Assembly: GCA_946612115.1 (NCBI GenBank)
Contig: CAMOEI010000003.1
Span: 81,718-145,717, forward strand
Length of the DNA: 64,000 nucleotides
Direction of reading: 5' to 3'
DNA from: an uncultured Caryophanales bacterium
Lineage (GTDB): Bacteria; Bacillota_I; Bacilli_A; RFN20; CAG-826
Below, piece after piece: positions 6,053 to 52,392 of the stretch. The translations under genes and the position numbers were made by a program. Numbering within the stretch: the first letter of the stretch is position 1; every line of letters begins with the position of its first letter. Under the pieces are notes generated by a model. That model did no database searches. It was not told where the DNA came from and saw only the letters and a program-made list of their open reading frames with translations.

Positions 6053-8022
6053 TGCCTCCAGTTCGTATTAGAGAAAGAGGAAGAGCCAAAAAGGGTACAA
6101 TGAAACGTTTGCTTAAGCAACTTTTCAAACTTTACCCAGGTCAACTCATCCTCTCATTAATATGTTTAATCTTTAACGTCTTTGGAAATCTTTCCAGTTC
6201 AATCTTTGTCTCACTTGCGACAAATACTTTAACTGCAGCAGGGCCTATTCACGCTAATCCATTTACTGACACATTCCCAGTCAGCACAACTTTTGGATTT
6301 ACCGTTAATACAAATGTCACCACCTTATTAATCATTCTCGGTTCAATTTATATCGTTGGTATTTTTGCTAGCTGGACTTGGAATAGAACAATGGCAATCG
6401 TCACTCAAAAATTCATGAATGAATTTAGAAAAGCGATGTTCAACCACATGCAAGATTTACCAATCAAATATTTTGACACACACGCTCATGGAGCGATCAT
6501 GTCAATGTATACAAATGATATCGACACCATTAGACAATTCATTTCTCAAGCTTTACCAAGTTTAATTCAAACTGGTTTAGTTTCAATCTTTGTCTTCTTT
6601 ATCATGCTCTATACCAGTGTTTGGATGACCTTAGTAGTGGTTATCGGTTTCTTCTTCATGCTTGGAGTGGTTAAAGGAGTGGGAGGAAAAGCCTCGACAT
6701 ACTTTATCAAACAGCAATCCACACTTGCCCAAGTTGAAGGAGCGATTGAAGAATCAATTAATGGCCTTAAGGTCATTAAAGTCTTCTCTCATGAAGAAAA
6801 GAGTGAAGAAGAGTTTAATGTCTTAAATGAAGAGTTATATCATAACGCTTCTCAAGCCAATATCCACGGTAACATCATGATGCCAGTCATGGGTAATATC
6901 GGTAACTTCTTATATATCTTATGTGGAGTTATGGGAGCGTTTATCTATATCTTTGGTTGGAGAAATCTCTCCTTCTCTGGATTTGAAGTCATTAAAGGTG
7001 ATGCGCCTAGATTCGCTGGTATGATCGCTTTATTCTTAATGATGAGCAGAATGTTTGCGAATAACGTTAACCAATTCTCTCAACAAGTGATCTTTATCGT
7101 TCAAGGTATGGCGGGTGCCTCTAGATGTTTAGATTTAATCGATGAAGAAAAAGAAAAAGATGAAGGCTATGTTTACTTGTGTAACATCATCTATCATGAA
7201 GATGGAACATTTGAAGAAACTAGTGAGCACACAAGAGACTATGCTTGGAAATATCGTCATAAAGATGGCACTCTTGAATATCGTGAATTAAAAGGTGATA
7301 TCTTACTTGATAATGTTGATTTCTCTTACGACGGTAAAAAGCTTGTTTTACAAGGGGTCAATATTTACGCTCACCCAGGACAAAAAATTGCCTTTGTTGG
7401 CGCAACCGGAGCAGGTAAAACCACAATCACTAACTTAATTAATAGATTCTATGACTTAGCGGATGGAAAGATTCGTTATGACGGAATCAATATTAATAAA
7501 ATTAAAAAAGCAGATTTAAGAAAATCATTAGGTATTGTTTTACAAGACACTAATTTATTTACTGGAACCGTTATGGATAACATTCGTTATGGTCGATTAG
7601 AGGCCACAGATGAAGAATGTATCGAAGCTGCTAAGATTGCTAATGCCCATGACTTTATTGAAAGACTTCCAGAAGGTTATAACACCATGTTAAATGGAGA
7701 TGGAAGTAATTTATCTCAAGGTCAAAGACAACTTCTTGCTATTGCAAGAGCAGCGGTTGCGGACGCTCCAGTGATGATTTTAGATGAAGCAACTTCCTCA
7801 ATTGATACGAGAACTGAAAAGCTCGTTCAACAAGGAACAGATAAATTGATGGAGGGAAGAACTGTCTTTGTTATCGCACATAGACTTTCCACTGTCCAAA
7901 ATAGTAATGCAATTATGGTGTTAGACCACGGACATATTATTGAACGTGGCACTCATACTGATTTGATTAATCAAAAAGGTGTCTACTATAAACTTTATAC
8001 CGGCGCCTTTGAATTAGAATAG
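6052..8022 (+). CDS. ABC transporter, fused permease/ATP-binding protein
   Basis: Walker A GATGAGKTT, signature LSQGQRQLLAIARA, Walker B VMILDEATSSID; 1-nt overlap with the preceding gene, probable heterodimeric exporter. Confidence 0.95.
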   Translation: MPPVRIRERGRAKKGTMKRLLKQLFKLYPGQLILSLICLIFNVFGNLSSSIFVSLATNTLTAAGPIHANPFTDTFPVSTTFGFTVNTNVTTLLIILGSIYIVGIFASWTWNRTMAIVTQKFMNEFRKAMFNHMQDLPIKYFDTHAHGAIMSMYTNDIDTIRQFISQALPSLIQTGLVSIFVFFIMLYTSVWMTLVVVIGFFFMLGVVKGVGGKASTYFIKQQSTLAQVEGAIEESINGLKVIKVFSHEEKSEEEFNVLNEELYHNASQANIHGNIMMPVMGNIGNFLYILCGVMGAFIYIFGWRNLSFSGFEVIKGDAPRFAGMIALFLMMSRMFANNVNQFSQQVIFIVQGMAGASRCLDLIDEEKEKDEGYVYLCNIIYHEDGTFEETSEHTRDYAWKYRHKDGTLEYRELKGDILLDNVDFSYDGKKLVLQGVNIYAHPGQKIAFVGATGAGKTTITNLINRFYDLADGKIRYDGININKIKKADLRKSLGIVLQDTNLFTGTVMDNIRYGRLEATDEECIEAAKIANAHDFIERLPEGYNTMLNGDGSNLSQGQRQLLAIARAAVADAPVMILDEATSSIDTRTEKLVQQGTDKLMEGRTVFVIAHRLSTVQNSNAIMVLDHGHIIERGTHTDLINQKGVYYKLYTGAFELE

Positions 8023-8031
8023 GAGTTTGTT

Positions 8032-9333
8032 ATGGATTACGTAAAAGGAATGTTTGAATTTATAACCAAAAGTCCAAATAGTTTCTTCGCTATCGCTAAT
8101 GCGAGTAAAGAATTAGAAGAAGCAGGATATGTTTGGCAAGATGAAGTTGATGATTTCAAAATCAAATTAGGAGATAAGTTATATTTCACTAGAAACGATA
8201 GTGCACTTATCGCTTTAAATATTGGCAAAAACTGTTCTAAAGATGATGTTGTTTTTCACATCATTGTCTCTCACGCGGACAGTCCAGGTTTTAAAGTTAA
8301 ACCTGTCAGTGACAGCACTAAAGACATCTATAACAAAGTTAACATTGAAAACTATGGAGGACTTATCAAACCATCCTGGTTAGATCGTCCACTAAGCGTT
8401 GCAGGTAGAGTAATGGTGAAAGAAAACGATAAAGTCGTTACTAAACTAGTTAATATCGATAAAGATATCATTAGAATTCCTAATCTCTGTATTCATTTCT
8501 CTAAAGACATCAATGATGGACATGTTTATGACAATGTTAAAGACATGCAAGCCTTTATCGCTCAAGAACTAGAAGGAGATGTTTTAAAAGAACAACTCGC
8601 TAAAGAAGTTAACGCTAAATTAGAAGATATTGTCAGTTTTGACTTATTTGTTTATAACAGAGAAAAACCAATCTTATGGGGATTAAATGATGAATATATC
8701 TCTTCTCCTAGATTAGATGACCTCGCCTGTTTATATCCTTCTTTAGAAGCATTTAAAGAAAGTGAAAATGATAAAGTTGTTAATGTTTTATATATTGCAG
8801 ATAATGAAGAAGTTGGTTCTTCTTCTAGACAAGGCGCAGCTAGTGAATTTCTAAAATCCATTCTTAAAAGAGTCACTAAAGAACTCGGATGGAATAGATT
8901 TAGAAGAATCATCGCTAATTCATATTTAATAAGCGCAGATAACGCTCATGCGGTTCATCCAAATCAACCAAAGATTACTGACCCACATAACAAGGCCTAT
9001 ATGAACAAAGGATTAGTGATTAAATTTAACGCTTCTCAAAGTTACACAACTGATTCATTCTCTAGCGCTATCTTCCAAGAGATTTGTAAGAAAGCTGGAG
9101 AGCCATATCAATTCTACTCAAATAGTTCAAAATTAAGAGGTGGCTCAACTTTGGGAAACATCTTAATTAGATCTCTTCCATTTATTTCAGTAGATGTTGG
9201 ATTAGCTCAACTTGCGATGCATTCATCTAACGAAACAATGGGTGCTAAAGACATTGAAAGCGCGATTAAAGTATTCAAAACCTTCTATACATCTAGCATC
9301 AAAATTAGAGCGAAAGAATTTACAGTAAAATAG
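8032..9333 (+). CDS. M18 family aminopeptidase
   Basis: VSHADSPGFKVKP, YIADNEEVGSSSRQGAAS, SADNAHAVHPNQP, GGSTLGNI motifs of aspartyl aminopeptidase family. Confidence 0.92.
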   Translation: MDYVKGMFEFITKSPNSFFAIANASKELEEAGYVWQDEVDDFKIKLGDKLYFTRNDSALIALNIGKNCSKDDVVFHIIVSHADSPGFKVKPVSDSTKDIYNKVNIENYGGLIKPSWLDRPLSVAGRVMVKENDKVVTKLVNIDKDIIRIPNLCIHFSKDINDGHVYDNVKDMQAFIAQELEGDVLKEQLAKEVNAKLEDIVSFDLFVYNREKPILWGLNDEYISSPRLDDLACLYPSLEAFKESENDKVVNVLYIADNEEVGSSSRQGAASEFLKSILKRVTKELGWNRFRRIIANSYLISADNAHAVHPNQPKITDPHNKAYMNKGLVIKFNASQSYTTDSFSSAIFQEICKKAGEPYQFYSNSSKLRGGSTLGNILIRSLPFISVDVGLAQLAMHSSNETMGAKDIESAIKVFKTFYTSSIKIRAKEFTVK

Positions 9334-9335
9334 AT

Positions 9336-9375
9336 AAAAAAACCGGGAAATTAACGACAAATCCCGGTTTTCTTT
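9336..9375. terminator. Bidirectional intrinsic terminator between convergent genes
   Basis: AAACCGGGA ... TCCCGGTTT stem flanked by A-run and T-run. Confidence 0.85.
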
Positions 9376-9391
9376 ATGTTTTTTTAAAAAA

Positions 9392-10948
9392 TTAATAACG
9401 TTTTGTGAACTTATTTAAGTGACGATAAACATGCTTCAATCTTGGGAACATTTTTAGATACACCTTTCGATAAAGTTCTTCATATTGTTGATGAGCAACT
9501 TCATTAGGAGAGAAGGTATCAGTTTTATGACTCATCGCCTCCATTGCTTCTTGGATATTATTAAATTCTCCAGCAGCGGTAAAGACACTGATAGCCTCAC
9601 CTAAAGATGTTGTTTCATAGGTTTGCACTCTACTAACTGGAAGGCCAAAGATATCCGCGGTAATTTGACAAATCGCATCGCTTTGACTACCTCCTCCTGA
9701 AATTCTTAATTCTTTAACTTTATGTCTTTGAGAATGTTCAATGGACTCCAATCCTTCTTTTAAGGCATAGCCAATTCCTTCAATAATTGCGCGATATAAG
9801 TGTTCACGAGTGTGGATATCGCTAAATCCGATGATTCCACCTTTTGCTAAAGGTCTTCTTAGTCCTGGTCCCCAATATGGTTGAAGGACTAATCCATCAC
9901 TTCCTGGTGGAATCTTGGATAAGTTTTTATTCAATAATTCCTCAACCGCCATACTTTGGATTTTGGATTCATCAATTAATTCACTAGCGAAGTTTTTGCT
10001 AAACCATGAAAGCATCCAATATCCTCGATAGACTTGAACCTCCATGTTATACCATCCTTTTGTGGCAGCTGGATAAGCTGGTAAGAATGGTTCTGGTTCA
10101 TGATATTTTTGATTACTTACTTCAATGGTGGATGCGGTTCCATAAGAAATCGCTCCAATAGATTTATCTAGAGCGCCTAATCCTAATGTTTCACAAGCTT
10201 TATCACTACCAGAAGCATAGAGCTTAATTCCTTCTGGTAAACCAGTTTCCTTACAAATCTCACTAGAAATATTTCCGATTACTTCTCCTGGTTGTTTTAA
10301 TTCAAAGAGCATTCTTTTTGGAATTCCAAAAATACATCCTTTAAGAGCTTTTTCTCCATACCATTTTCTAGATTTGAAATTAATTGGATAGTGACCAGTC
10401 AAGTTAGCAGCGGAATCCACTAGTTGACCAGTTAACTTATAAGTTAAATATGTAGAAATATTGACGTATTTATCAACTTTAGACCAAACTTCTGGTTCAT
10501 TTTCTTTAATCCAGTGCGCCATAGTGCGGCTACGATTTAATTTAATCGTATCGCCCATACCAACTAATCTAAATAATGCGCGATAAGTTAAAGGAATTCT
10601 CTCTTTTGCTTTCGCCATTCTTTGATCTAGCCAGAGAATTGAATCTCTAACTGGTTTCATCTCTTTATCTAATTGAACAGAAGAATCTCTAAATGTCGAA
10701 ATAGTGGAACCGATAATTCTATCTAGTTTATCTTTATTTGATTTCACTAATTCTTTTAAACATTCAACAAGGTTTTTATAGTAAAAATCTGGATCTTGTT
10801 CAGCATAACCTTTTTCCTTTGAAAAATATGGTGGGTCATATTTTCTTTTAACAATACCTTCGCACTCTCCTTTTTTGTTAAAAAGAGCGGTTCTTAATGA
10901 TTGTGTACCAAAATCAATTGTTAACACTAAAGGGGATTTTTCGCTCAT
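9392..10948 (-). CDS. FGGY-family carbohydrate kinase
   Basis: LVLTIDFGTQSLRTALFNKKGE, GAISYGTASTIEVSN, LRISGGGSQSDAICQITADIFGLPVSRVQTYETTSLGEA. The start is more likely the internal ATG at 10948 (MSEKSPLV, preceded by a GAGG-type SD) than the ORF-track start at 11014. Confidence 0.88.
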   Translation of the reverse strand: MSEKSPLVLTIDFGTQSLRTALFNKKGECEGIVKRKYDPPYFSKEKGYAEQDPDFYYKNLVECLKELVKSNKDKLDRIIGSTISTFRDSSVQLDKEMKPVRDSILWLDQRMAKAKERIPLTYRALFRLVGMGDTIKLNRSRTMAHWIKENEPEVWSKVDKYVNISTYLTYKLTGQLVDSAANLTGHYPINFKSRKWYGEKALKGCIFGIPKRMLFELKQPGEVIGNISSEICKETGLPEGIKLYASGSDKACETLGLGALDKSIGAISYGTASTIEVSNQKYHEPEPFLPAYPAATKGWYNMEVQVYRGYWMLSWFSKNFASELIDESKIQSMAVEELLNKNLSKIPPGSDGLVLQPYWGPGLRRPLAKGGIIGFSDIHTREHLYRAIIEGIGYALKEGLESIEHSQRHKVKELRISGGGSQSDAICQITADIFGLPVSRVQTYETTSLGEAISVFTAAGEFNNIQEAMEAMSHKTDTFSPNEVAHQQYEELYRKVYLKMFPRLKHVYRHLNKFTKRY

Positions 10949-11016
10949 AGTAATTTCCTCACTATCTATTATTTTACACGCAAATAGACGAAAACTTTGA
11001 AAAATTATTACCAAAC

Positions 11017-11030
11017 TAGAACTAGTTCTA
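11017..11030. repeat. Perfect 14-bp palindrome TAGAACTAGTTCTA; candidate operator
   Basis: Self-complementary sequence upstream of the FGGY kinase gene. Confidence 0.45.
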
Positions 11031-11078
11031 AATATTTAATAGAAAAATATTTTTTAAATTTTCCCAAAAATCTCCCTA

Positions 11079-11099
11079 GGAAATCTTTATAAGATTTCC
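11079..11099. repeat. Perfect inverted repeat GGAAATCTT-TAT-AAGATTTCC upstream of the ATA-start ORF
   Basis: 9-bp arms, 3-nt centre; just upstream of AGGAGG. Confidence 0.5.
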
Positions 11100-11120
11100 A
11101 TTATATATAGGAGGACATTT

Positions 11121-11657
11121 ATAATAAAAACACTAAATATCAAATCTAGAAAAAACTGTATTGACTATCTTTTTAAGCTAAAAAATCGAAGGAAAAACGT
11201 ACCTATCGACATAAGAATCAAAAACACCAACTTAATCCAATTAAACGATTTACTAAACAAGAAAATATTTAGGAAAAACGACCTCTTTGTTAATTCAGAT
11301 ACACTGTGGCAAATAACGCAACCCAAGGGAAAGACAAGATCCCACAATCCGCACAATTTAAGCCCTGAAGAAATAATTGATGCCCTATCATCCATGAATA
11401 ATCTTTTTGCAATGTTTAAAAGCAATAATAGATATGGATTATTGACTAGTATTATAGCGAAAAACGGTCAACCGATTTTATTAGTTATCGAAATAGGAGC
11501 TGGATTAATAGGGGATTTAAATGCAAATATAAATAAATTTGTTACAATGTATCAAATCAAAGATTTAAAACAAAAACTAAACTCAATTAATAAAGATGAT
11601 TTTTTATATCTAAATAATTCACTAAAATCAATTATAAACAAAAAGCCTCTTAACTAA
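11121..11657 (+). CDS. MuF-C/PBECR-like (BECR-fold nuclease-like) protein, apparently with non-canonical ATA start
   Basis: Frame is open from 11121 to 11657; AGGAGG at 11108-11113 gives good SD spacing to ATA at 11121; no ATG/GTG/TTG available before 11394 in this frame. C-terminal pattern HNLSPEEIIDALSSMNNLFAMFKSNNRYGLLTSIIAKNGQPILLVIEIG...FVTMYQIKDLKQKLNSI resembles MuF-C type domains. Confidence 0.5.
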   Translation: MIKTLNIKSRKNCIDYLFKLKNRRKNVPIDIRIKNTNLIQLNDLLNKKIFRKNDLFVNSDTLWQITQPKGKTRSHNPHNLSPEEIIDALSSMNNLFAMFKSNNRYGLLTSIIAKNGQPILLVIEIGAGLIGDLNANINKFVTMYQIKDLKQKLNSINKDDFLYLNNSLKSIINKKPLN

Positions 11658-11812
11658 GAGATTGTTTAACGGAATGCTGACCGATACGAAGGGCCAATCC
11701 CAGCTACCTGATATCAGCTAACGTGAGGGAAACATTATCAATGCCATCTCATCGCTACTTATCTCGAAGCATCTAGTTAAGTGACCGTGACTCACGGTTT
11801 TGCCTAGCTAAA
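11638..11812 (-). ncRNA. Standalone structured ncRNA, copy 1 of a tandem pair, class not recognised
   Basis: Minus-strand promoter TTTACA-17bp-TATTAT (plus coordinates 11839-11844 / 11816-11821). Shares conserved blocks with copy 2 (CGTGANTCACGG hairpin, GATGCTYC-AGATRAGTAGC, GCTGATATCAGG, CGTATCGGTCAGCATTC). Ends in an intrinsic terminator CTCTTAGTTAAGAGGCTTTTTG. Confidence 0.75.
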
Positions 11813-11845
11813 AATATAATATAACGCTCAAAAAATTTTGTAAAC

Positions 11846-12026
11846 AAAAAGCCTCTCAATTGAGAGACTTGTTGGTTAGAATGCTGACCGATACGGGGCT
11901 CCAATTGCCCTAACCTGATATCAGCTGACACGGAGCAGGCACGATTGGTTACGTGTACACCCCCGAGCTACTCATCTAGGAGCATCCTTCAAATTCGCCG
12001 TGAATCACGACCTTATCCGGCTAATT
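11846..12026 (-). ncRNA. Standalone structured ncRNA, copy 2 of a tandem pair, class not recognised
   Basis: Minus-strand promoter TTGATT-17bp-TATGAT (plus 12053-12058 / 12030-12035); same conserved blocks as copy 1; terminator GTCTCTCAATTGAGAGGCTTTTTG. Confidence 0.75.
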
Positions 12027-12192
12027 CTCATCATAGATGATTCTTTTTTTCTAATCAACAGTTATGAATAAAAATAGAAAGATTTTCAATTTTTTTCATT
12101 TGTGTTTTTTTCTCAATGTGTATGTGTGATAAAATATATGACGCTGGTGAGCGAACGTAATGCTCACTTTCTCGCCTATTAGGAGGAAAATT

Positions 12193-14838
12193 ATGGCTGA
12201 AAAGAAATACGTTTACCCCTTTGATGAAGCTTATGGTTTAGGTAAGGAACTCTTAGGAGGTAAAGGTGCTGGTTTAGCTGAAATGATTCACATTGGTGTC
12301 CCAGTCCCAGAAGGATTCACCATCACAACAGAAGCCTGCACACTCTATTATGAAAGTGGAAAACAAATCCCTGAATTCGTCCAAAAACAAATCTTCACCG
12401 CAATCGAAGGTGTTGAAAAGAAAACTGGAAAGAAATTCGGTGGAGACCACAACCCATTATTAGTTTCCGTCCGTTCTGGTGCTAGAGTCTCTATGCCAGG
12501 TATGATGGACACCATCTTAAACTTAGGTTTAAATGAACAAACATGTGCTGCATTAGCAAAAGAAACTAACAATGAAAGATTTGCGATGGATTCCTATCGT
12601 AGATTCATCCTTATGTTCACAAACATCGCCAAAGGTCACCCAAGAACTGACATGGATAAGATGCTTGATGATCTTAAGAAATCCAGAGGTTACAAATTAG
12701 ATACAGAAGTAACCACAGAAGAATTAAAAGACTTAGTTAAGAGATACAAGGAATACTACAAGAAAGTCTTCGGTGAAGAATTCCCAAGTGATCCACGTGT
12801 CCAATTAATGGAAGCTGTTGCTGCGGTCTTCAGATCCTGGGACAACCCAAGAGCGAACATCTACCGTATGCAATACTCAATCCCATATTCATGGGGAACC
12901 GCTGTTAACGTTCAATCAATGGCGTTCGGTAATAAAGGCGAAACTTCCGGTACCGGTGTTGCTTTCTCAAGAAACGCTGCTACTGGTGAAAAGGAAATCT
13001 CTGCTGAATATTTACCAAATGCACAAGGTGAAGACGTTGTCGCAGGTATTCGTACTCCATTACACATCGACGAACTCAAAAGACGTATGCCAGAAGTATA
13101 CGAACAATTCGTCAAAACAATTAAAAACATGGAACTCCATTATCGCGATATGCAAGATATGGAATTCACCGTTGAAGAAGGAAAACTCTACTTCTTACAA
13201 ACTAGAAGTGGTAAGAGAACTCCTGCCGCAGCCTTAAAAATGGCCTGTGATATGGTCGATGAAGGCTTAATCACCAAAGAAGAAGCCGTCTTAAGAATTG
13301 ACCCAGTTTCCTTCGACAAATTATTATTACCAAACTTCGATAAAGACGAATTAGCCGCTGCTCAAGCTAGATTAATTGCCAAAGGCAACCCAGCTGGCCC
13401 AGGAGCAGGAACAGGTGCTATCGCCTTCACTGCTGAAGAAGCAGAACAAAGACACGCTGCCGGAGAAAAAGTTGTTCTCGTTAGAGCAGAAACCTCTCCA
13501 GAAGACTTAGCAGGTATGATCGCTTGTGAAGGTATTCTCACCATGAGAGGTGGCATGACTTCTCACGCTGCTGTCGTTGCTAGAGGTATGGGTAAATGCT
13601 GTATCACCGGTTGTGCTGCTGCATTAATCGATGAAGAAGCAAGAACCTTAACAATCAATGGTAAGGTTTACACCGATAAGGATGTCTTATCCTTAGATGG
13701 TTCCACAGGTAGTGTCTACGCTGGTGATATTAAGAAAGTTGCACCAGACCTCTCCAGTGGTAACTTCGGAAGACTCATGAAATGGGTTGATGATGCTAGA
13801 CAAATGAAAGTCAGAACTAACGCTGATACTCCAAGAGATGCACATCAAGCCAAACTCTTCGGTGCTGAAGGTATTGGACTTTGCCGTACAGAACATATGT
13901 TCTTCGATAAAGACAAGATCTTCTCCTTCAGAAAGATGATTCTTGCTGAAACCAAAGAAGAAAGAGTTGCCGCTTTAGCGGAAATCGAACCATTACAACA
14001 AAAAGACTTTGAAGGTTTATTCGAAGAAATGAACGGATTAAATGTTAACGTTCGTTTACTCGATCCACCTCTACACGAATTCTTACCTCAAGAAGAAGAC
14101 AAGATTGAAGAACTTGCTAAAGCAACAGGCCACTCAGTCGAATTCATTCACAAGAGAATTGAAGAATTACATGAATTCAACCCAATGATGGGTCATAGAG
14201 GATGCCGTTTAGACGTCTCCTATCCAGAAATTGGTGAAATGCAAACCCGCGCTATCGTTAAAGCTGCTATTGCAGTTAATGCTAGAAAAGGTTTACACAT
14301 CGAACCAGAAATCATGATTCCATTAACCTTAGACCTCAAGGAATTCAAATTCGTTAAAGCGATTGTCACAAAGACCGCTGATGAAGTCATTAAGGAAGCT
14401 GGAGTTAACATGAAATATCATGTCGGTACCATGATTGAAATTCCACGTGCTGCTCTTCTTTCTGGAGAGATTGCCGAGGAAGCTGAATTCTTCTCATTTG
14501 GTACAAATGACTTAACTCAAATGACCTTTGGATTCTCTAGAGATGACGCTAGTAAATTCTTACCAGAATACTACAGCAACAAAATCTTTGAAGAAGATCC
14601 ATTCAAGACCTTAGATACCCATGGTGTTGGACGTCTTATCAAACTCTCCGTTAAAGAGGGTAGAGAAACTAGACCAGAACTCCACGTTGGTGTCTGTGGT
14701 GAAACTGGTGGAGAACCAAATTCCATCCAATTCTATCATGACGTTGGATTAGACTATGTCTCCTGTTCACCATTCCGTGTCCCAGTCGCTAGATTAGCCG
14801 CTGCTCAAGCTGCGATTAGACACCCAAGAAATAAATAG
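12193..14838 (+). CDS. ppdK: Pyruvate, phosphate dikinase
   Basis: VYPFDEAYGLGKELLGGKGAGLAEM, GGMTSHAAVVARGMGKCCITGC, GICRTEHMFF-like GLCRTEHMFF, GVCGETGGEP. AGGAGG precedes ATG at 12193, so the ORF-track start at 12160 is probably too early. Confidence 0.97.
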   Translation: MAEKKYVYPFDEAYGLGKELLGGKGAGLAEMIHIGVPVPEGFTITTEACTLYYESGKQIPEFVQKQIFTAIEGVEKKTGKKFGGDHNPLLVSVRSGARVSMPGMMDTILNLGLNEQTCAALAKETNNERFAMDSYRRFILMFTNIAKGHPRTDMDKMLDDLKKSRGYKLDTEVTTEELKDLVKRYKEYYKKVFGEEFPSDPRVQLMEAVAAVFRSWDNPRANIYRMQYSIPYSWGTAVNVQSMAFGNKGETSGTGVAFSRNAATGEKEISAEYLPNAQGEDVVAGIRTPLHIDELKRRMPEVYEQFVKTIKNMELHYRDMQDMEFTVEEGKLYFLQTRSGKRTPAAALKMACDMVDEGLITKEEAVLRIDPVSFDKLLLPNFDKDELAAAQARLIAKGNPAGPGAGTGAIAFTAEEAEQRHAAGEKVVLVRAETSPEDLAGMIACEGILTMRGGMTSHAAVVARGMGKCCITGCAAALIDEEARTLTINGKVYTDKDVLSLDGSTGSVYAGDIKKVAPDLSSGNFGRLMKWVDDARQMKVRTNADTPRDAHQAKLFGAEGIGLCRTEHMFFDKDKIFSFRKMILAETKEERVAALAEIEPLQQKDFEGLFEEMNGLNVNVRLLDPPLHEFLPQEEDKIEELAKATGHSVEFIHKRIEELHEFNPMMGHRGCRLDVSYPEIGEMQTRAIVKAAIAVNARKGLHIEPEIMIPLTLDLKEFKFVKAIVTKTADEVIKEAGVNMKYHVGTMIEIPRAALLSGEIAEEAEFFSFGTNDLTQMTFGFSRDDASKFLPEYYSNKIFEEDPFKTLDTHGVGRLIKLSVKEGRETRPELHVGVCGETGGEPNSIQFYHDVGLDYVSCSPFRVPVARLAAAQAAIRHPRNK

Positions 14839-44907: not shown

Positions 44908-45126
44908 TTATTCTTCAATTAATTGATAGTTATCTTCGCTTTTAACATAGATTAACTCATAGTAAGGATAAAAATTGCAGAGAAACGCTCTGATTTCCTG
45001 AATATATCTTAGAAATGTAATATTTGGGATTTCTATTTCTGATAATACATCTTCCTTTCTAAGTCTTTTTGTTTTGAATAACTCTGTAACCATCCATAAG
45101 ACAGCTTGTGTTTTGTTAACTCTCAT
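44908..45126 (-). CDS. Small winged-helix/HTH protein, copy A
   Basis: MRVNKTQAVLWMVTELFKTKRLRKEDVLSEIEIPNITFLRYIQEIRAFL... resembles an isolated WYL-type N-terminal HTH; good SD (AAGGAG). Close paralogue of 50504..50740. Confidence 0.7.
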   Translation of the reverse strand: MRVNKTQAVLWMVTELFKTKRLRKEDVLSEIEIPNITFLRYIQEIRAFLCNFYPYYELIYVKSEDNYQLIEE

Positions 45127-45154
45127 TGTTATCTCCTTTTATCAAGAAAATGAA

Positions 45155-45168
45155 CAATAACGTTATTG
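45155..45168. promoter_or_regulatory. Perfect 14-bp palindrome CAATAACGTTATTG upstream of small wHTH copy A
   Basis: Self-complementary; 29 bp upstream of the start codon at 45126. Confidence 0.45.
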
Positions 45169-45277
45169 AGGCTAATGGCCTTTTGTTGTGCACACTCTCA
45201 TTATTCGATATCCATAACAAAAACAGTTATCAATCAATTGGGATTTATCTCAAAAATTTTGGACTTTTTATGTTTTT

Positions 45278-46816
45278 CTATTCGGAAACAATAGTAAATG
45301 TCTTTAAAGGAACATCATAAATGTTTGATCCGCTTTTGATTTTAGTAATAGTGAATTTATATGTATCTCGATTCGCGTAAGATGGTTGAGTATCAAAATG
45401 CTCTTTTATTAAAACAAGATGAGCATATGTTGAATCGGTTGGATATACGAATCCGCCAGAAGTAGTAAAGAATCCGTGTTCATATCCATCAAATGAATCA
45501 TAGCCAATCTTAATAAAGATTTGATCAATATCTAAATCATTTTTGTTGAGTAAATAAATATGAATATCTTCAAATGCTCCAGCAACAAAAATGTTATCTC
45601 CGTCATTATCTGTTAAATCCAATACTTCAAACGGAAGAGTCTGAGTATATGAATAACTACATCCTGAGCAGGTATAAATAGCCTCACTACCAGTAATCTC
45701 TTTTTCAAATGTGTGTTTTCCTTTATCAATATATAAATCTTCAAAACCTTCATCAGTGCAAGCATGCCAGTGATGTGTTTCGTTTTTTGACCAAGTATCA
45801 GAATAGTGGTGGACTAATTGAGGAAGAATAACTTCATAAGAATGATTACACTTTGCACATGTATAAACTTCTTTTCCAGGAGCCTCATAAGTTGCTGTAG
45901 TGGTTACTACTGAATAAATATGTTCCTCATATTCTGCTTTCAAATCCTCATATCCTTCGTCAAGACATTCTCTCCAGTGATGAGCCTCATCATACTTATA
46001 AGTAGTGGAATATGTATGTTCTAAATGCGATACGGGTGTGTCGTTAAAAGTATATCCACATATATCGCATGTATGAGATGTATATCCATCTAATTCATAT
46101 GTTGGATTAACAACAACGTCTGTATATGTATGTGGAACAACTTCTGTCCTTAGATGAGAATATCCTTCATCTATACACACATGCCAGTGACCGGTTGAAT
46201 CAAAACTATATTCTTCTGAATAGTGATGTTCTATCTCTACTGGTTTTCTATTTTTAATCGAAATAGGAATAATTATTGCAGCGGTCACTACTGCAGCGGA
46301 TGTAATTAAACTGGGCAAAATTATTGGCAAAAATACCCTTTTTTTGCGCAAAGGCTTGTTCTTTTTATTTTTTTCATCAATATACGCAAAGTATAGTTCG
46401 TTATAACTTAGCTTGTATAATTTGCATAGCGCAACAAAGTTAGCAATTGTTGGAGTGGAGGTTCCATTTTCCCAAGATCCTACAGTTTTCTTATTAACTG
46501 AAATCTTTTTAGCAATATCACTTTGAAGAAGATTATTTTTCTTTCTTAGAGTTTTAAGATTTAACGCAAACTTAGTGATATCAAATTGTTTATTGTCGCA
46601 AATATCATTGTCTTTAGAAACTTCACAATTTATGAATCCGTCTAAGTCCAAACCTAATAAAGAAGCATATTTTCCTGCCACAATTAAATCAGGAGAACTT
46701 TTAGATAATTCCCATGATGAAATTAGTTGAGGTGAATACCCTAACTCATTAGCGATATCAGCTTGAGATAAACCTCTTTCTGTTCTTCTTTTGAGAAGAA
46801 ATTTTCCTCTATCCAC
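45278..46816 (-). CDS. Membrane-anchored tandem-XRE regulator with external Cys/His-rich repeats
   Basis: Two XRE HTHs (KRRTERGLSQADIANELGYSPQLISSWE; LRKKNNLLQSDIAKKISVNKKTVGSWENG), TM segment VFLPIILPSLITSAAVVTAAIIIPISI, then three repeats of the type HHYS...HHWHxCxDEGYxDL...HTY...TYE...YTCxxCxYSY. Confidence 0.82.
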   Translation of the reverse strand: MDRGKFLLKRRTERGLSQADIANELGYSPQLISSWELSKSSPDLIVAGKYASLLGLDLDGFINCEVSKDNDICDNKQFDITKFALNLKTLRKKNNLLQSDIAKKISVNKKTVGSWENGTSTPTIANFVALCKLYKLSYNELYFAYIDEKNKKNKPLRKKRVFLPIILPSLITSAAVVTAAIIIPISIKNRKPVEIEHHYSEEYSFDSTGHWHVCIDEGYSHLRTEVVPHTYTDVVVNPTYELDGYTSHTCDICGYTFNDTPVSHLEHTYSTTYKYDEAHHWRECLDEGYEDLKAEYEEHIYSVVTTTATYEAPGKEVYTCAKCNHSYEVILPQLVHHYSDTWSKNETHHWHACTDEGFEDLYIDKGKHTFEKEITGSEAIYTCSGCSYSYTQTLPFEVLDLTDNDGDNIFVAGAFEDIHIYLLNKNDLDIDQIFIKIGYDSFDGYEHGFFTTSGGFVYPTDSTYAHLVLIKEHFDTQPSYANRDTYKFTITKIKSGSNIYDVPLKTFTIVSE

Positions 46817-46836
46817 ACAACCATTATACTTTTATT

Positions 46837-47640
46837 TTACTTTTTGTTGCTTTTGTAATTTACATTTCCTATTTGTTTTACAAAATGGCGGTCAATATTA
46901 TGTTTGTCTTTCAAATATTTGACTATGTCTCTCTTTATTTTTTCTTTAATTATTATTTTCTTGGATATGGATTTTTCAGGAAGTTCGAATATCATTTCCC
47001 CATATTTAGGGAACAAAATAAAACAACCTTGCTGGTTTTTTATTCGTGTCGAACTGTTTGGGTCTGGTTTTATAAAAACAAAATCATTTAAATTTTTCGC
47101 TTTTACTTTGTCTGTTCCTACGATAATTGAAGTCTCGTCTTCTAGAAAAAAAGATTCAAAAGTTAAGTTATTTGACTCATTAAAATTCATAAGATTAATT
47201 TGCTGCATTTTAGAGACATCAACAATATCAATAACTCCATCTTCTTTATATAAATCTTCTGAGTTAGAAGGACATTCCCAATCAATGCAGGCAAATAATA
47301 AGGCTATCCATGGCGAGAATGTGAAATCCAATAATTTTGTCTTAAAACCAATGTGCTGCAGATTGATATAAATATTGAATTTTTTTCTGAATGATTTCTT
47401 TTTAGCTTTAAATAATCTATACAATTCCCTCGCTTCATCTAAGTGATAATCAACATCTAAATCTATTTCATTTGCAACACCATCATCAGGATTTAAAGCC
47501 CTGATTCTATAGGCGCTTGGAGATAATAAGAAATCAGTAGATTTCTGACCTCTAAAAACGAACTGGTCACGCGGTAATTGTTCTAATTTTCTTATCTCTT
47601 CTATGACAGTTTCTAAATTATCACATGCTACGCAGTCCAT
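46837..47640 (-). CDS. FRG domain-containing protein
   Basis: LETVIEEIRKLEQLPRDQFVFRGQKSTDFLLSPSAYRIRAL ... FNIYINLQHIGFKTKLLDFTFSPWIALLFACID are FRG-domain hallmarks. Confidence 0.88.
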   Translation of the reverse strand: MDCVACDNLETVIEEIRKLEQLPRDQFVFRGQKSTDFLLSPSAYRIRALNPDDGVANEIDLDVDYHLDEARELYRLFKAKKKSFRKKFNIYINLQHIGFKTKLLDFTFSPWIALLFACIDWECPSNSEDLYKEDGVIDIVDVSKMQQINLMNFNESNNLTFESFFLEDETSIIVGTDKVKAKNLNDFVFIKPDPNSSTRIKNQQGCFILFPKYGEMIFELPEKSISKKIIIKEKIKRDIVKYLKDKHNIDRHFVKQIGNVNYKSNKK

Positions 47641-50507
47641 ATTGTTGGTTCTCCGTTTACATAATGCCAGTAATGACCATCAGTAGCAGGTTCTGTTTCT
47701 GAATAGTAATAAATTATAAAACCATATTCCTCATCGTATTCTTTTTGATCGTCTCGAATTTGACTTTCAGTGCCTTTGTAAAAAATATTGCTTAGATTTT
47801 CGCAAGTTGTGAATATACTAAAATTGCTAACAACATTACTATGGACGACTATATGTTCTAGATATTTGCATTTATTAAAAGCGCCCTCTTTAATATAATT
47901 AATATCTTCTGGTATTTCGTAAGTAAGATCAGGTCTTGACGCTGGATATGCAACCAGACTTGAAGTTGAAGCGAAAAGTACGCCATTATTAGATGAAATA
48001 TAGTCATCGTCATCTTCAACAATTATTCTTTTTAGATTTAAACAATTTGCAAAAGGGTTATATTTTATGGTGATGTCGGAAATCATGTTGGTGAGATGTA
48101 TTGTCTCAATAGTTGTATCTAAATAATCACCATAAAAGAAATTAACTATGCAGTCAGTTAATGTAATATCTGTTAATGGACTATCATTTCCTGCTTCTAC
48201 AAAAACAAGATTACCGTAAGTAGTAATTCCTTCAAAATAACTGTCAAAGGACGATAATGTTCCGTTATTACATTCCGCGATAATATTAATGGCGTTGAGG
48301 CAAGCACCGGGACGTATTTTGACATTGCTTTTTATATAAATGTTTTCGAATCTGCTCGAGTTTATACTCATTGAGATTTTTGATTGCTTCCAAACACCTA
48401 CACCTAAGCTTCCTTCAAAGTCGAGTGTTACATTTTTTATGCCGATATAACCAGATTGGCCTCCAAGACAGAAAAACTCATCAATCATATAAGATCGGTT
48501 GTCTTTTTGGCTGTATCCTTGAATGACTGGTTGCGTAGTTATAGTAATTTGTTCAAGGCTCACTGGAATGTAGTAATTCATAGAGTCTGATTGCGGACTT
48601 CCAGGTGGGGCAACTACAACACCCCAGACGGTATCTGTTGTTTTTAATTCTCGTGAAGATTGAGGGTAACCAGGGTAACAATGATTACTTTTGTCACTAA
48701 AGAATGAACAAAATTTTGCATAATATCTAGAATATGAATAGTAGTTATAACCACTGACCTTGATTTTGTAGTGTGGCGCCGGTGCGGATAATATTTTTAA
48801 AGAAATACAATTTTGGAAATAGGAATAAGTACGATCAAGATTTTTTGATAACTTAACTTGAACTAAGGCTTTGCAATTATAAAAGGCTTTTTCTTTTAAA
48901 TTGGTAACTGTTTCCGGAATGTCTATAGACAAAAGCGATTTGCAATTTTCAAAAGCGTTACTACCAATTGATGTGATGTTTGTAGGAATTGTTATCCCTT
49001 TTAATTCTTGATAGTTCGCAAAGGCATAATCTGGTAAAGCGGATAACAATGAAGATACGCGTATTTCATCAATTTCTTCATCGCTTGAATCGACTAGATG
49101 CTTTATATATTTATAATTTTTGAATGTATTGGAATAAGGTTCAAAAAGATAGTGATAGTCTTCCTGTGAATTAATTCTAATGTAGATGTTGACTAGATCG
49201 TTGCAATTCTTAAATGCTTCTTCTTCTATGTTTTTAATACAACTTGGCAATACTAATGATTGCAATTCTGTGCATGATTCAAAAGCCGCCGCGCTAATTC
49301 TGGTGATTTTTAGGCCATTTAATGAGTCAGGTATACTCACATATTTTGCATCCTTTAAAAGGCAATCTTTAATTGTGTATTCCCCATCGTTTTCTTCGAG
49401 TTCAAATATTATTTTTGGAGTGAATTGAGCGTAATACACCATGTCTTGAGATATTTGGCTTAATTCCGGACTCCAGCCCAGGAACGAATAAGTGTAGGTA
49501 CCATCTGTTTCTTTAGTTGGGATAGCTTTGTTATAATTTGGAACAGAACCATTTCTGACATAGTCAGTTGATAGTATATCCCCATTATAATTTACCCATG
49601 TAACTTTATAACCAATATCGAATACTGCTGTGTATTCTACATCTTGTGTTACAGGTTCGATAGATTTGTCCCATCCAATAAAAACATAATAATTGTCATC
49701 TTTTGGCTTTTCGGGGACTGCCGCGTCGTATGATGGAATATCCCCATATGTATACTCCGAAGATAAAAGAATAGAAGAATCATAATTTTTCCAAACAACA
49801 TTATATTTTCTTGGCGAATATGAATAGTGGGCTCTATATGTGATATCACATGTAACTTTTGATAACTCCGGCATCCAATAATCAAACTGATAAACATAGT
49901 GTTTGTCTTCTTTTGTTTGTTCTATTTCCCCACTAAAGAAAGGCATTTCCCCATATGAAAAATAACTAACATCCAATAGGTTCCCTATATTATCTAGCCA
50001 AGTAACTTTATATTTTCTAATTGTAGTATCATAAAGCGCAGTGTATGTCTCGTCTTGATAAACAGTATGTAATTCTGGAAACCAACCAGAGAATGGATAT
50101 TCATGCTCTTTATCTGGTGATTTGGTTGGGGTACTTTTTTTGTATGAAGGCATTTGCCCATATTCATATGTTTCATAATCCAATACGAAGCCTGTATTGC
50201 TGTCTTTCCACATAATGGAATATTTTCGTGGATGTGTGTCGTATGTGGCAGTATAAGTAGTGTCTTGTTCGGCTTTTGCTATTTCAGGAGACCAACCGGC
50301 AAAGGAGTATGTGTGTTCTCTGTCTTCAGATTTTCTTGGGAAAGCCCCTTTATATTCTGGCAATGCCCCCTTTTTTACTTTGGTGGTTGATAAAAGAGTA
50401 TTATCAAAATTCAACCACGTAATTGTGAATGTCTGGGTTTGTTTAGAACATCCATTTAAAAGTGACGGCAAAAATAGAAGCGCTATTGTGACAAATAATT
50501 TTTTCAT
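47628..50507 (-). CDS. Surface lipoprotein with five InlB-type (Listeria-Bacteroides) repeats and BspA-like leucine-rich repeats
   Basis: Lipobox LLNGC; repeated VTWxNxDGxxLxxxxxxYGxxPxYxxxxPxKxxDxxYxYxFxGWxPExxxVxxDxTYTAxY; LRR_5-like ISAAAFESCTELQSLVLPSCIKNIEEEAFKNCNDL. Confidence 0.87.
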   Translation of the reverse strand: MKKLFVTIALLFLPSLLNGCSKQTQTFTITWLNFDNTLLSTTKVKKGALPEYKGAFPRKSEDREHTYSFAGWSPEIAKAEQDTTYTATYDTHPRKYSIMWKDSNTGFVLDYETYEYGQMPSYKKSTPTKSPDKEHEYPFSGWFPELHTVYQDETYTALYDTTIRKYKVTWLDNIGNLLDVSYFSYGEMPFFSGEIEQTKEDKHYVYQFDYWMPELSKVTCDITYRAHYSYSPRKYNVVWKNYDSSILLSSEYTYGDIPSYDAAVPEKPKDDNYYVFIGWDKSIEPVTQDVEYTAVFDIGYKVTWVNYNGDILSTDYVRNGSVPNYNKAIPTKETDGTYTYSFLGWSPELSQISQDMVYYAQFTPKIIFELEENDGEYTIKDCLLKDAKYVSIPDSLNGLKITRISAAAFESCTELQSLVLPSCIKNIEEEAFKNCNDLVNIYIRINSQEDYHYLFEPYSNTFKNYKYIKHLVDSSDEEIDEIRVSSLLSALPDYAFANYQELKGITIPTNITSIGSNAFENCKSLLSIDIPETVTNLKEKAFYNCKALVQVKLSKNLDRTYSYFQNCISLKILSAPAPHYKIKVSGYNYYSYSRYYAKFCSFFSDKSNHCYPGYPQSSRELKTTDTVWGVVVAPPGSPQSDSMNYYIPVSLEQITITTQPVIQGYSQKDNRSYMIDEFFCLGGQSGYIGIKNVTLDFEGSLGVGVWKQSKISMSINSSRFENIYIKSNVKIRPGACLNAINIIAECNNGTLSSFDSYFEGITTYGNLVFVEAGNDSPLTDITLTDCIVNFFYGDYLDTTIETIHLTNMISDITIKYNPFANCLNLKRIIVEDDDDYISSNNGVLFASTSSLVAYPASRPDLTYEIPEDINYIKEGAFNKCKYLEHIVVHSNVVSNFSIFTTCENLSNIFYKGTESQIRDDQKEYDEEYGFIIYYYSETEPATDGHYWHYVNGEPTIWTA

Positions 50508-50740
50508 ATTTTTCCTTGCCTTGTTTGTGATAATAAACGATATTCATTTTTGTCTCTTGAGTAAATCAATTCGAAATATGGATAAAAATTAGCGAGAAAC
50601 GCTCTAATTTCTTGAATGTATCTCAAAAATGTGATGTCTGTTAATTCTAGTTCTGACACAACATCTTGTTTTCTTAATTGATGATTGGTAACCAACAAAG
50701 TTGCCATATAAATAACAGCCTGTGTTTTGTTAACTTTCAT
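50504..50740 (-). CDS. Small winged-helix/HTH protein, copy B
   Basis: MKVNKTQAVIYMATLLVTNHQLRKQDVVSELELTDITFLRYIQEIRAFLANFYPYFELIY; about 44 of 72 aligned residues identical to copy A by eye. 4-nt overlap with the downstream lipoprotein gene. Confidence 0.7.
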   Translation of the reverse strand: MKVNKTQAVIYMATLLVTNHQLRKQDVVSELELTDITFLRYIQEIRAFLANFYPYFELIYSRDKNEYRLLSQTRQGKI

Positions 50741-50776
50741 ATTTATATTTATGATATATAGGCACACTAACAAAAA

Positions 50777-50805
50777 ATGATAGTCTGACTATTTTTGACT
50801 ATCAT
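50777..50805. promoter_or_regulatory. Operator-like repeat array upstream of the accessory cassette
   Basis: ATGATAGTC-N11-GACTATCAT (9-bp perfect arms) containing an internal ATAGTC-T-GACTAT palindrome: three copies of a GACTAT half-site in 29 bp. Confidence 0.6.
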
Positions 50806-50833
50806 CTATTGTTTCTTTAATAAATTTATTGTT

Positions 50834-51709
50834 CTAACAAGGCAAATATTCGTTCATCCATTTCTTGATGAACTTCAATTGACCAGGTGTGTGGAAGTAG
50901 TGTTTTGTGTTTTTCATAATCGTTAATGAAGAGTTATGATGAGCGGCAAATTCAAATATTGAATCTTTATCTACAATATTGTCTTTTTCTCCATAAAGAA
51001 TATGTGTTTTTGTGTTCCAAGTATCTTTATTAGAAAGAGATTCATAGAAATCATAAGAAAGAGTTTGTCCATCCTCTAAGGTAATCAACTTTTCTTCTTT
51101 TAATCTTTTCATAGAGATACGATTGGTTCTCATTAACTTTTCTATAACTTTTTTCATGTTCACTAAAGGTGAAATAAAGAACGCTAGTTGGATTTTGAAG
51201 CTAGAAAGATACATATATGTATAAAACGCCCCAATTGAATTAGCGATGACATAAATCTTTTTGTATTTATTTGATATTTCTGTAAATTCTTTAATGATTT
51301 GATCTTTTACTTCCCATGGATTACCGTCTTTATAATCTAGTCCAATAACATCATATTTATTTGAATAGAATGTGTAGAAATTTTCTTCTTCTTTGTTTCC
51401 ATATAGTCCATGAATATAAACTAAACAAGAATCGTGATTAGGGTTTTTAGATTCTTCTACCAGTTGATCTAATCTATTTATATCTTCTTCTGGAAAATCG
51501 AATAAGTCACGCGCGCTCAACATATATTCTTTTAATAAAATAATAATCTTTTGATAGGACATATCTTCTTGCCCTGATTCAATCTTATTAATAGTGGATT
51601 TGTGCGCGTAGCCTAAAGAATCCGCAAATTCTTGCTGGGTTAAGCCTTTTGCTTTTCTAATTTTTTTGATTCTTTCTCCAAATTCGTTGCTCATACTCTC
51701 TAACTCCAT
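50834..51709 (-). CDS. XRE HTH fused to alpha/beta hydrolase
   Basis: N-terminal FGERIKKIRKAKGLTQQEFADSLGYAHKSTINKIESGQ; C-terminal VYIHGLYGNKEEENFYTFYSNKYDVIGLDYKDG, YVIANSIGAFYTYMYLSS, LYGEKDNIVDKDS, KHYFHTPG. Confidence 0.85.
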   Translation of the reverse strand: MELESMSNEFGERIKKIRKAKGLTQQEFADSLGYAHKSTINKIESGQEDMSYQKIIILLKEYMLSARDLFDFPEEDINRLDQLVEESKNPNHDSCLVYIHGLYGNKEEENFYTFYSNKYDVIGLDYKDGNPWEVKDQIIKEFTEISNKYKKIYVIANSIGAFYTYMYLSSFKIQLAFFISPLVNMKKVIEKLMRTNRISMKRLKEEKLITLEDGQTLSYDFYESLSNKDTWNTKTHILYGEKDNIVDKDSIFEFAAHHNSSLTIMKNTKHYFHTPGQLKFIKKWMNEYLPC

Positions 51710-51842: not shown

Positions 51843-51911
51843 GTCATGTAGGGCCCTTATGGGTCGGACAATTGCCCTTGAAAAAGGGACGCCCGTCTTC
51901 GGACGGTTTTT
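51843..51911 (+). ncRNA. Candidate standalone small RNA (~70 nt), three hairpins
   Basis: Promoter TTGACA (51808-51813)-17bp-TATCTT (51831-51836). Hairpins GGCCC-TTAT-GGGTC, CCCTT-GAAA-AAGGG, CCGTC-TTCG-GACGG; the last is followed by TTTTT. Confidence 0.65.
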
Positions 51912-52290
51912 ATTTTTTTAAGCGATTAAAGTGTCGTTTGTCTTTTCTGTTAATACTCGAGGAACAAGCGAAATTATTAAACTGAATAGACATTACAAAT
52001 GTAATATCCTCTTCGTTAATCGCCATATCTACAATTAGTTCTTTTCCAATATCTCTTCTTTTACAAAGAAGCGGTCGTTTATATACATAACTTTTATTAA
52101 CGTTTGTGCTGATAGGGTGCTTGAGTGGGACATTATCGATGTTGTTTGTTGAACCAAATTTGATAATCAAATATAAATTACAGAGATCATCTTTCCAGAC
52201 AACAATTCCAGGGTGTCCGGTTTTGCTACCATCGTGAATTAAATAAAACTTACCAACTTCAATTTTCTTGATAGATGTTGTGATTTCCAT
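51910..52290 (-). CDS. Hypothetical protein, possibly PemK/MazF-like
   Basis: GKFYLIHDGSKTGHPGIVVWKDDLCNLYLIIKFGS...KSYVYKRPLLCKRRDIG...SSSINRKDKRHFNRL; fold assignment tentative. Start either 52308 or 52290. Confidence 0.45.
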   Translation of the reverse strand: MEITTSIKKIEVGKFYLIHDGSKTGHPGIVVWKDDLCNLYLIIKFGSTNNIDNVPLKHPISTNVNKSYVYKRPLLCKRRDIGKELIVDMAINEEDITFVMSIQFNNFACSSSINRKDKRHFNRLKK

Positions 52291-52392
52291 ATCAAAATCA
52301 TAACACATGAAGATGCATATTTGTAGTGTTTAAGGAAACTTTTTTCAATAAAAAAACAGCCATGATTTTCATCCTAACTGCTATTAACTATT

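Follow-up and report, generated by a model that had tools for sequence, protein, structure and literature searches.

Transmembrane transcription regulators (TTRs) are one-component receptors of the ToxR/CadC kind (PMC10269533). They are composed of a cytoplasmic helix-turn-helix (HTH) DNA-binding part, a single transmembrane (TM) helix, and an outside sensor domain, as is XRE-TM, the membrane regulator of a cassette of about 6 kb in an uncultured gut bacterium of the Caryophanales. The cassette lies in the window, which here means the whole stretch of 64,000 nucleotides that was analysed (contig CAMOEI010000003.1), and consists of five minus-strand genes transcribed in the order wHTHb, lipoprotein, FRG, XRE-TM, wHTHa, where wHTH denotes a small winged helix-turn-helix protein. 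On balance, the cassette probably belongs to a surface-gene module that recurs in uncultured gut and rumen Bacilli, and its core of TTR-type XRE-TM and putatively Mga-like wHTH would control the lipoprotein and FRG. XRE-TM unites a DNA-binding domain and a transmembrane helix in one polypeptide, which is the structural definition of the TTR class (PMC10269533), and the cassette is predicted to work like a TTR module.

XRE-TM differs from the described members of this class in several respects. It carries two tandem XRE domains, whereas ToxR/CadC-like proteins have one OmpR-type winged helix; its usual partner is a separate 72-residue winged-helix gene instead of a membrane helper such as ToxS; and its ectodomain is freely swapped. 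Three features are new with respect to the TTR class: the winged-helix partner as a separate protein, a putative operator at the start site, and ectodomains and cargo that are exchanged.

Mga/AtxA/MafR-type proteins, which regulate surface-protein genes, may resemble the small proteins of the cassette, given a fold match to 3sqn and the surface-protein genes that often adjoin. However, the small proteins (72-77 residues) are a winged helix only, without PRD or EIIB domains, and are paired with a membrane XRE protein. BspA-like leucine-rich repeat (LRR)/InlB B-repeat lipoproteins share a lipobox, InlB-like repeats, and an LRR_5 region with the lipoprotein described here, but its gene is flanked and overlapped by a small winged-helix gene and the FRG gene. 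PDC-S15 is known as a single-gene defence candidate, while the FRG gene described here belongs to a regulator cassette and overlaps the gene of a surface lipoprotein.

Cassette Architecture

The genes of the cassette, in order of transcription, are as follows.

50504-50737, minus strand: wHTHb, first gene, 77-residue free-standing winged-helix protein (open reading frame list; paralogue of wHTHa)
47628-50507, minus strand: InlB/LRR surface lipoprotein, 959 residues (lipobox, LRR_5, InlB-repeat alignments)
46837-47640, minus strand: FRG-domain protein, 267 residues, cytoplasmic (PF08867, PADLOC PDC-S15)
45278-46816, minus strand: XRE-XRE-TM (XRE-TM) regulator, 512 residues, GTG start (two HTH_3 domains and a TM helix)
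44908-45126, minus strand: wHTHa, last gene, 72-residue free-standing winged-helix protein with a promoter-like region of its own (open reading frame list, AlphaFold, Foldseek)

The wHTHb and lipoprotein genes overlap by 4 nucleotides and the lipoprotein and FRG genes by 13 nucleotides, with a gap of 20 nucleotides between FRG and XRE-TM. These values agree exactly between the open reading frame list and an initial annotation made from the sequence alone, which also has the five co-oriented minus-strand genes at this place. That annotation further described overlaps or tiny gaps for all five genes and a single five-gene unit, which is too strong: four genes are tightly packed, and wHTHa follows XRE-TM after 151 nucleotides that include a promoter/operator-like region. 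The wHTHb reading frame can be extended to 50773 via a TTG codon. The earlier FRG, LRR, and tandem XRE calls hold by Pfam and the InlB-like repeats by alignment, and the two small HTH genes that bracket the cassette are indeed paralogous, with 62% amino acid identity and 72% identity over 141 nucleotides.

The XRE-TM and wHTH Core

The arrangement is real and recurrent, and what is conserved in it is the regulator core rather than all five genes together. The 72-residue wHTH gene is the best marker of this core and was used as such. Within the family it is present in 41 of 224 genomes, spread over 9 genera, and further families of the class have it too. In 23 of 39 marker loci, a single-pass protein with tandem XRE domains is encoded no more than 2 kb from wHTH, and none is present in 573 kb of other loci; this count is partly circular in that the XRE-TM profile was built from wHTH neighbours. 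The reverse search is less circular and places wHTH next to 18 of the 20 XRE-TM matches above 200 bits, where two matches in genome G140 resemble a duplicate assembly of a single locus and the marker in G009 is cut by a contig end. The surface-to-inside signalling arrangement proposed in the initial annotation is thus seen again in relatives.

XRE-TM usually comes first, followed by one wHTH or sometimes two and next by a protein that is secreted or membrane-bound, and surface proteins often come after wHTH. The window keeps the wHTHb-lipoprotein and XRE-TM-wHTHa adjacencies in a permuted order. Two genomes of another family (G408, G582) contain an XRE-TM with an InlB/LRR ectodomain, a divergent wHTH, and a lipoprotein.

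XRE-TM contains tandem HTH_3 domains (Pfam, 1.7e-24), a single hydrophobic TM helix near residue 165 (about residues 160-187), and an ectodomain of three H/CxxC repeats of about 69 residues with a spacing of 207-210 nucleotides. Its cytoplasmic tandem HTH is conserved, whereas the ectodomain is swapped. The window protein and the XRE-TM of locus L017 (G012) are 50% identical over residues 1-187 with no similarity beyond, and all invariant residues of eleven XRE-TM proteins fall at or before residue 143. Ectodomains across loci consist of DUF6273, InlB and LRR, M23 peptidase, or H/CxxC repeats. In one cassette, at locus L055 of G172 (4230-12204), DUF6273 forms the end of both the membrane regulator and the lipoprotein, as if the two read the same ligand.

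Neither Pfam nor NCBIfam gives a match above cut-off for wHTHa or wHTHb, which are predicted to adopt a winged-helix fold. The AlphaFold model of the small protein, based on a 20-sequence alignment, has a pLDDT of 95 and comprises three helices and a two-strand wing. Foldseek matches this model with a probability of 1.00 to the Mga-family structure 3sqn and to SSV1 F-112 (best E 0.025); the 3sqn match has an E value of 0.028, and other winged helices score about equally. A match to the AcpB/EbpR/MafR model is weak (0.0012) and below cut-off. No wHTH was found in a search of viral contigs. The phage family phrog_10647 (72 residues, unknown function) gives a weak full-length match to the small winged-helix protein (E 4e-4).

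Promoter Palindromes

The region upstream of wHTHa contains three predicted elements.

45200-45205, minus strand: -10-like AATAAT of the predicted wHTHa promoter (aligned with the same element in relatives)
45187-45194, no strand assigned: op1, palindrome TGTGCACA, over the predicted wHTHa transcription start (TGTCGACA at the same place in relatives)
45155-45168, no strand assigned: op2, palindrome CAATAACGTTATTG, 36-39 nucleotides before the wHTHa start (same spacing in L016 and L053)

wHTH upstream regions contain an 8-bp palindrome, mostly 2-5 nucleotides after a -10-like AATAAT or TATAAT, and it therefore covers the predicted transcription start. The form TGTCGACA is found at 13 wHTH promoters from two families, with its GTCGAC core at three more, and three variants of op1 stay palindromic: TGTGCACA in the window, TGCTAGCA, and TGCCGGCA. 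All other copies of TGTCGACA within the searched loci fall inside coding frames. The window's genome has four copies of TGTGCACA, three of them inside genes, and op1 is the only intergenic copy. Among close wHTHs, op1 is present in 16 of 17 with an adjacent tandem XRE-TM and in 0 of 8 without one, by a hand tally that was then put to a statistical test and serves as a lead; second wHTH copies, wHTHb included, lack it. This co-occurrence points to the action of XRE-TM, or to wHTH autoregulation, at the palindrome. Structure in the 5′ untranslated region of the RNA was considered as the source of the palindromes and gave no consistent fold, so a DNA operator is preferred.

The op2 palindrome occurs once in the genome, and its core is common to G006 and G140 at the same spacing. 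It was rejected as a shared operator and given no weight: the exact core is present in three loci only, and different palindromes lie near that position elsewhere. At five loci (L057, L060, L062, L066, L058), the operator region upstream of wHTH also reads as an in-frame N-terminal extension (MNN.DVDK.GAP...), which makes the true start of some wHTH genes uncertain.

Surface Lipoprotein and FRG Cargo

The lipoprotein contains a signal peptide, the lipobox LLNGC, and five InlB-like repeats, followed by a BspA-type LRR region. The lipobox together with LRR_5 (Pfam, 1e-35) identifies it as a surface lipoprotein. Pfam does not call the InlB-like repeats, which align at 37% identity to the List_Bact_rpt (InlB B-repeat) lipoprotein of L018, and the combined InlB and LRR regions align at 28% to L017.

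The FRG protein belongs to PF08867 (1.1e-13; 52.3 bits against a cut-off of 25) and matches PDLC04933, the PADLOC profile for PDC-S15, at 1.6e-23. The family motifs tested were F/Y-R-G and QH..D; across 15 relatives, R30, G31, P41, H96, R199, Q203, and G205 are invariant, and Q95 and D105 are near-invariant. PDC-S15-type candidates are called uncharacterised (PMC12482510), and a published description places Frg in the ART superfamily as a possible antiviral NADase effector (PMC9503650). Homology between FRG and DUF2971 was rejected after hhalign gave no match.

FRG is present in 22 of 279 genomes of the order, and a search of 18 further genomes of the genus found none. A single-protein scan of GTDB contigs returned no relative, plasmids contained no FRG, and phages gave one weak match. 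Of 21 FRG loci within the order, 4 have a lipoprotein gene next to FRG (5 if a truncated LRR gene is counted), versus 13 of 375 background genes, and these lipoprotein neighbours carry InlB or LRR repeats. The combination of FRG with wHTH and XRE-TM was found at one other locus, L055 of G172. The remaining wHTH/XRE-TM loci contain DUF2971, DUF3800, or neither; in G015, DUF2971 overlaps an InlB lipoprotein gene by 17 nucleotides after two wHTHs, and in G012, DUF3800 precedes XRE-TM. DUF2971 was rejected as a general lipoprotein partner, being located mostly in restriction/defence loci.

FRG genes outside the order lie near AbiH, restriction genes, or comEC. Three loci that are unrelated to one another (L130, L353, L360) have an AbiH gene (PF14253) only a few kb from FRG. 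An unexplained comEC-FRG pair, with FRG directly after a ComEC-like gene, is seen in another family, in five genomes or more (L351, L354, L372, L389, L390); the ComEC-like neighbour has Competence and metallo-beta-lactamase domains, as checked in L351 and L354. Taken together, FRG is a cargo that can be swapped and that has associations of the defence type. This agrees with the initial annotation in placing FRG in a family of defence contexts and departs from its treatment of FRG as an integral part of the cassette.

FRG could instead be the effector of an anti-phage or abortive-infection locus, in which the lipoprotein or the XRE-TM ectodomain senses phage adsorption and the small HTH proteins silence FRG until attack. 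The PDC-S15 match and the candidate antiviral role of Frg favor such a locus, as do the AbiH neighbours and a SacI-type restriction enzyme near FRG elsewhere. The 13-nucleotide overlap couples the lipoprotein and FRG, comparable to the DUF2971 overlap in G015, and at other sites DUF2971 often neighbours type I restriction genes and, in one case, a TIR/NB-ARC gene. Most wHTH/XRE-TM loci nevertheless contain no defence-type gene, and FRG is missing from the congeners searched, making this explanation unlikely. To our knowledge, no known defence system has a surface InlB/LRR lipoprotein, and a literature search found no paper on one.

XRE proteins are often antitoxins and autorepressors, and the XRE part of XRE-TM has weak similarity to antitoxin profiles, which would suit a toxin-antitoxin-like unit with FRG as self-toxin and the XRE or wHTH proteins as antitoxins. 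Such a unit is highly improbable: XRE and wHTH are widely found as a pair where FRG is absent, XRE-TM is anchored in the membrane and has a large ectodomain, and no tight FRG-XRE pair is seen elsewhere.

Genomic Site

Congeners keep the flanks of the cassette, desulfoferrodoxin at one end and tRNA-Met/tRNA-Ala plus tadA at the opposite end. The content in between differs: three lipoproteins in G007, a glycosyltransferase-like gene in G001 and G017, a 640-residue secreted protein in G003, G011, and G014, an InlB-type lipoprotein in G006, and a lipoprotein with another gene in G015. The site is empty in G002, where about 250 bp separate desulfoferrodoxin from tRNA-Met. The cassette had been described as interrupting housekeeping gene order; the site is better regarded as a variable hotspot beside tRNA genes, often holding surface genes. 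A prophage or plasmid origin was rejected, as no integrase or phage genes were seen among the open reading frames of the cassette and its flanks.

The changing cargo of this hotspot, and its emptiness in G002, also suit an FRG gene that landed as an unrelated passenger beside a surface-protein cassette and works alone, its overlap being incidental. The lack of FRG-lipoprotein adjacency outside the order is consistent with a passenger. However, FRG sits between the lipoprotein and XRE-TM genes with an overlap on one side and a short gap on the other, and G172, G148, G088, and G118 likewise have FRG next to an InlB/LRR surface gene. A passenger origin is considered quite unlikely.

One further element marks the boundary of the cassette toward the preceding HTH-hydrolase gene.

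50769-50813, minus strand: terminator-like inverted repeat and T-rich run upstream of wHTHb (read from the sequence)

Beyond this hairpin, 50834-51709 lies immediately upstream in the same orientation as the cassette and encodes an XRE domain fused to an alpha/beta-hydrolase-like domain. The same hotspot contains a 132-residue protein (51910-52308) with no Pfam match and an N-terminus that by eye is somewhat PemK/MazF-like.

Proposed Mechanism

In the favored reading, a TTR-type core controlling surface genes and their cargo, the XRE-TM ectodomain would read an extracellular or surface state, its presumed signal. The cytoplasmic tandem XRE domains, as the putative palindrome-binding protein, would bind the palindrome over the wHTH transcription start, which is TGTGCACA in this cassette and TGTCGACA at most loci, and would thereby determine how strongly wHTH is expressed, with a sign of regulation that is likewise putative. 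The winged-helix proteins would in turn tune the adjoining surface lipoprotein gene and anything translationally coupled to it, which is presumably co-transcribed. The coupled cargo in this cassette is FRG, whose predicted activity is probably that of an NAD+-consuming ART-superfamily effector for phage defence or related conflict. A candidate defence function of the cassette is possible.

Several points weigh against this reading. The palindrome op1 is missing at wHTHb, the gene at the head of the lipoprotein-FRG genes, and XRE-TM control over those genes is therefore a proposal. Locus L064 has wHTH and XRE-TM yet no op1, and some wHTH loci are without XRE-TM (L019, L051). The palindrome test was designed after the pattern had been seen and the loci are related, and its P values are therefore optimistic. 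The AlphaFold model of FRG (pLDDT 67) has no PDB match by Foldseek and did not confirm the ART fold; the assignment to ART is therefore taken from the literature. Lastly, FRG was rejected as a general lipoprotein partner outside the order: the initial annotation called for a search of FRG neighbourhoods, and the pairing with a lipoprotein gene, seen at four to five order loci, is found for 0 of 34 FRG genes outside the order. The FRG-lipoprotein link is confined to this order.

A broader and rather doubtful possibility is that these loci represent a previously undescribed modular receptor system. It would consist of a tandem-XRE membrane receptor, a free wHTH, and a dedicated palindromic operator across the transcription start, with ectodomain and cargo exchanged between species. 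Some lineages would have captured effectors that are ART-like or otherwise of defence type (FRG, DUF2971, DUF3800), such that a surface event gates an intracellular NAD+/ADP-ribose effector.

Biological Significance

If the favored reading is true, the cassette would give uncultured gut Bacilli a compact route for tying surface display to an outside cue. Its core would be findable by sequence and would offer a defined DNA site with exchangeable sensor and output parts. For FRG, a poorly understood candidate defence family, control would apparently be linked to the surface at two loci or more, and whether surface sensing gates an ART-type effector would become a testable question in five short genes.

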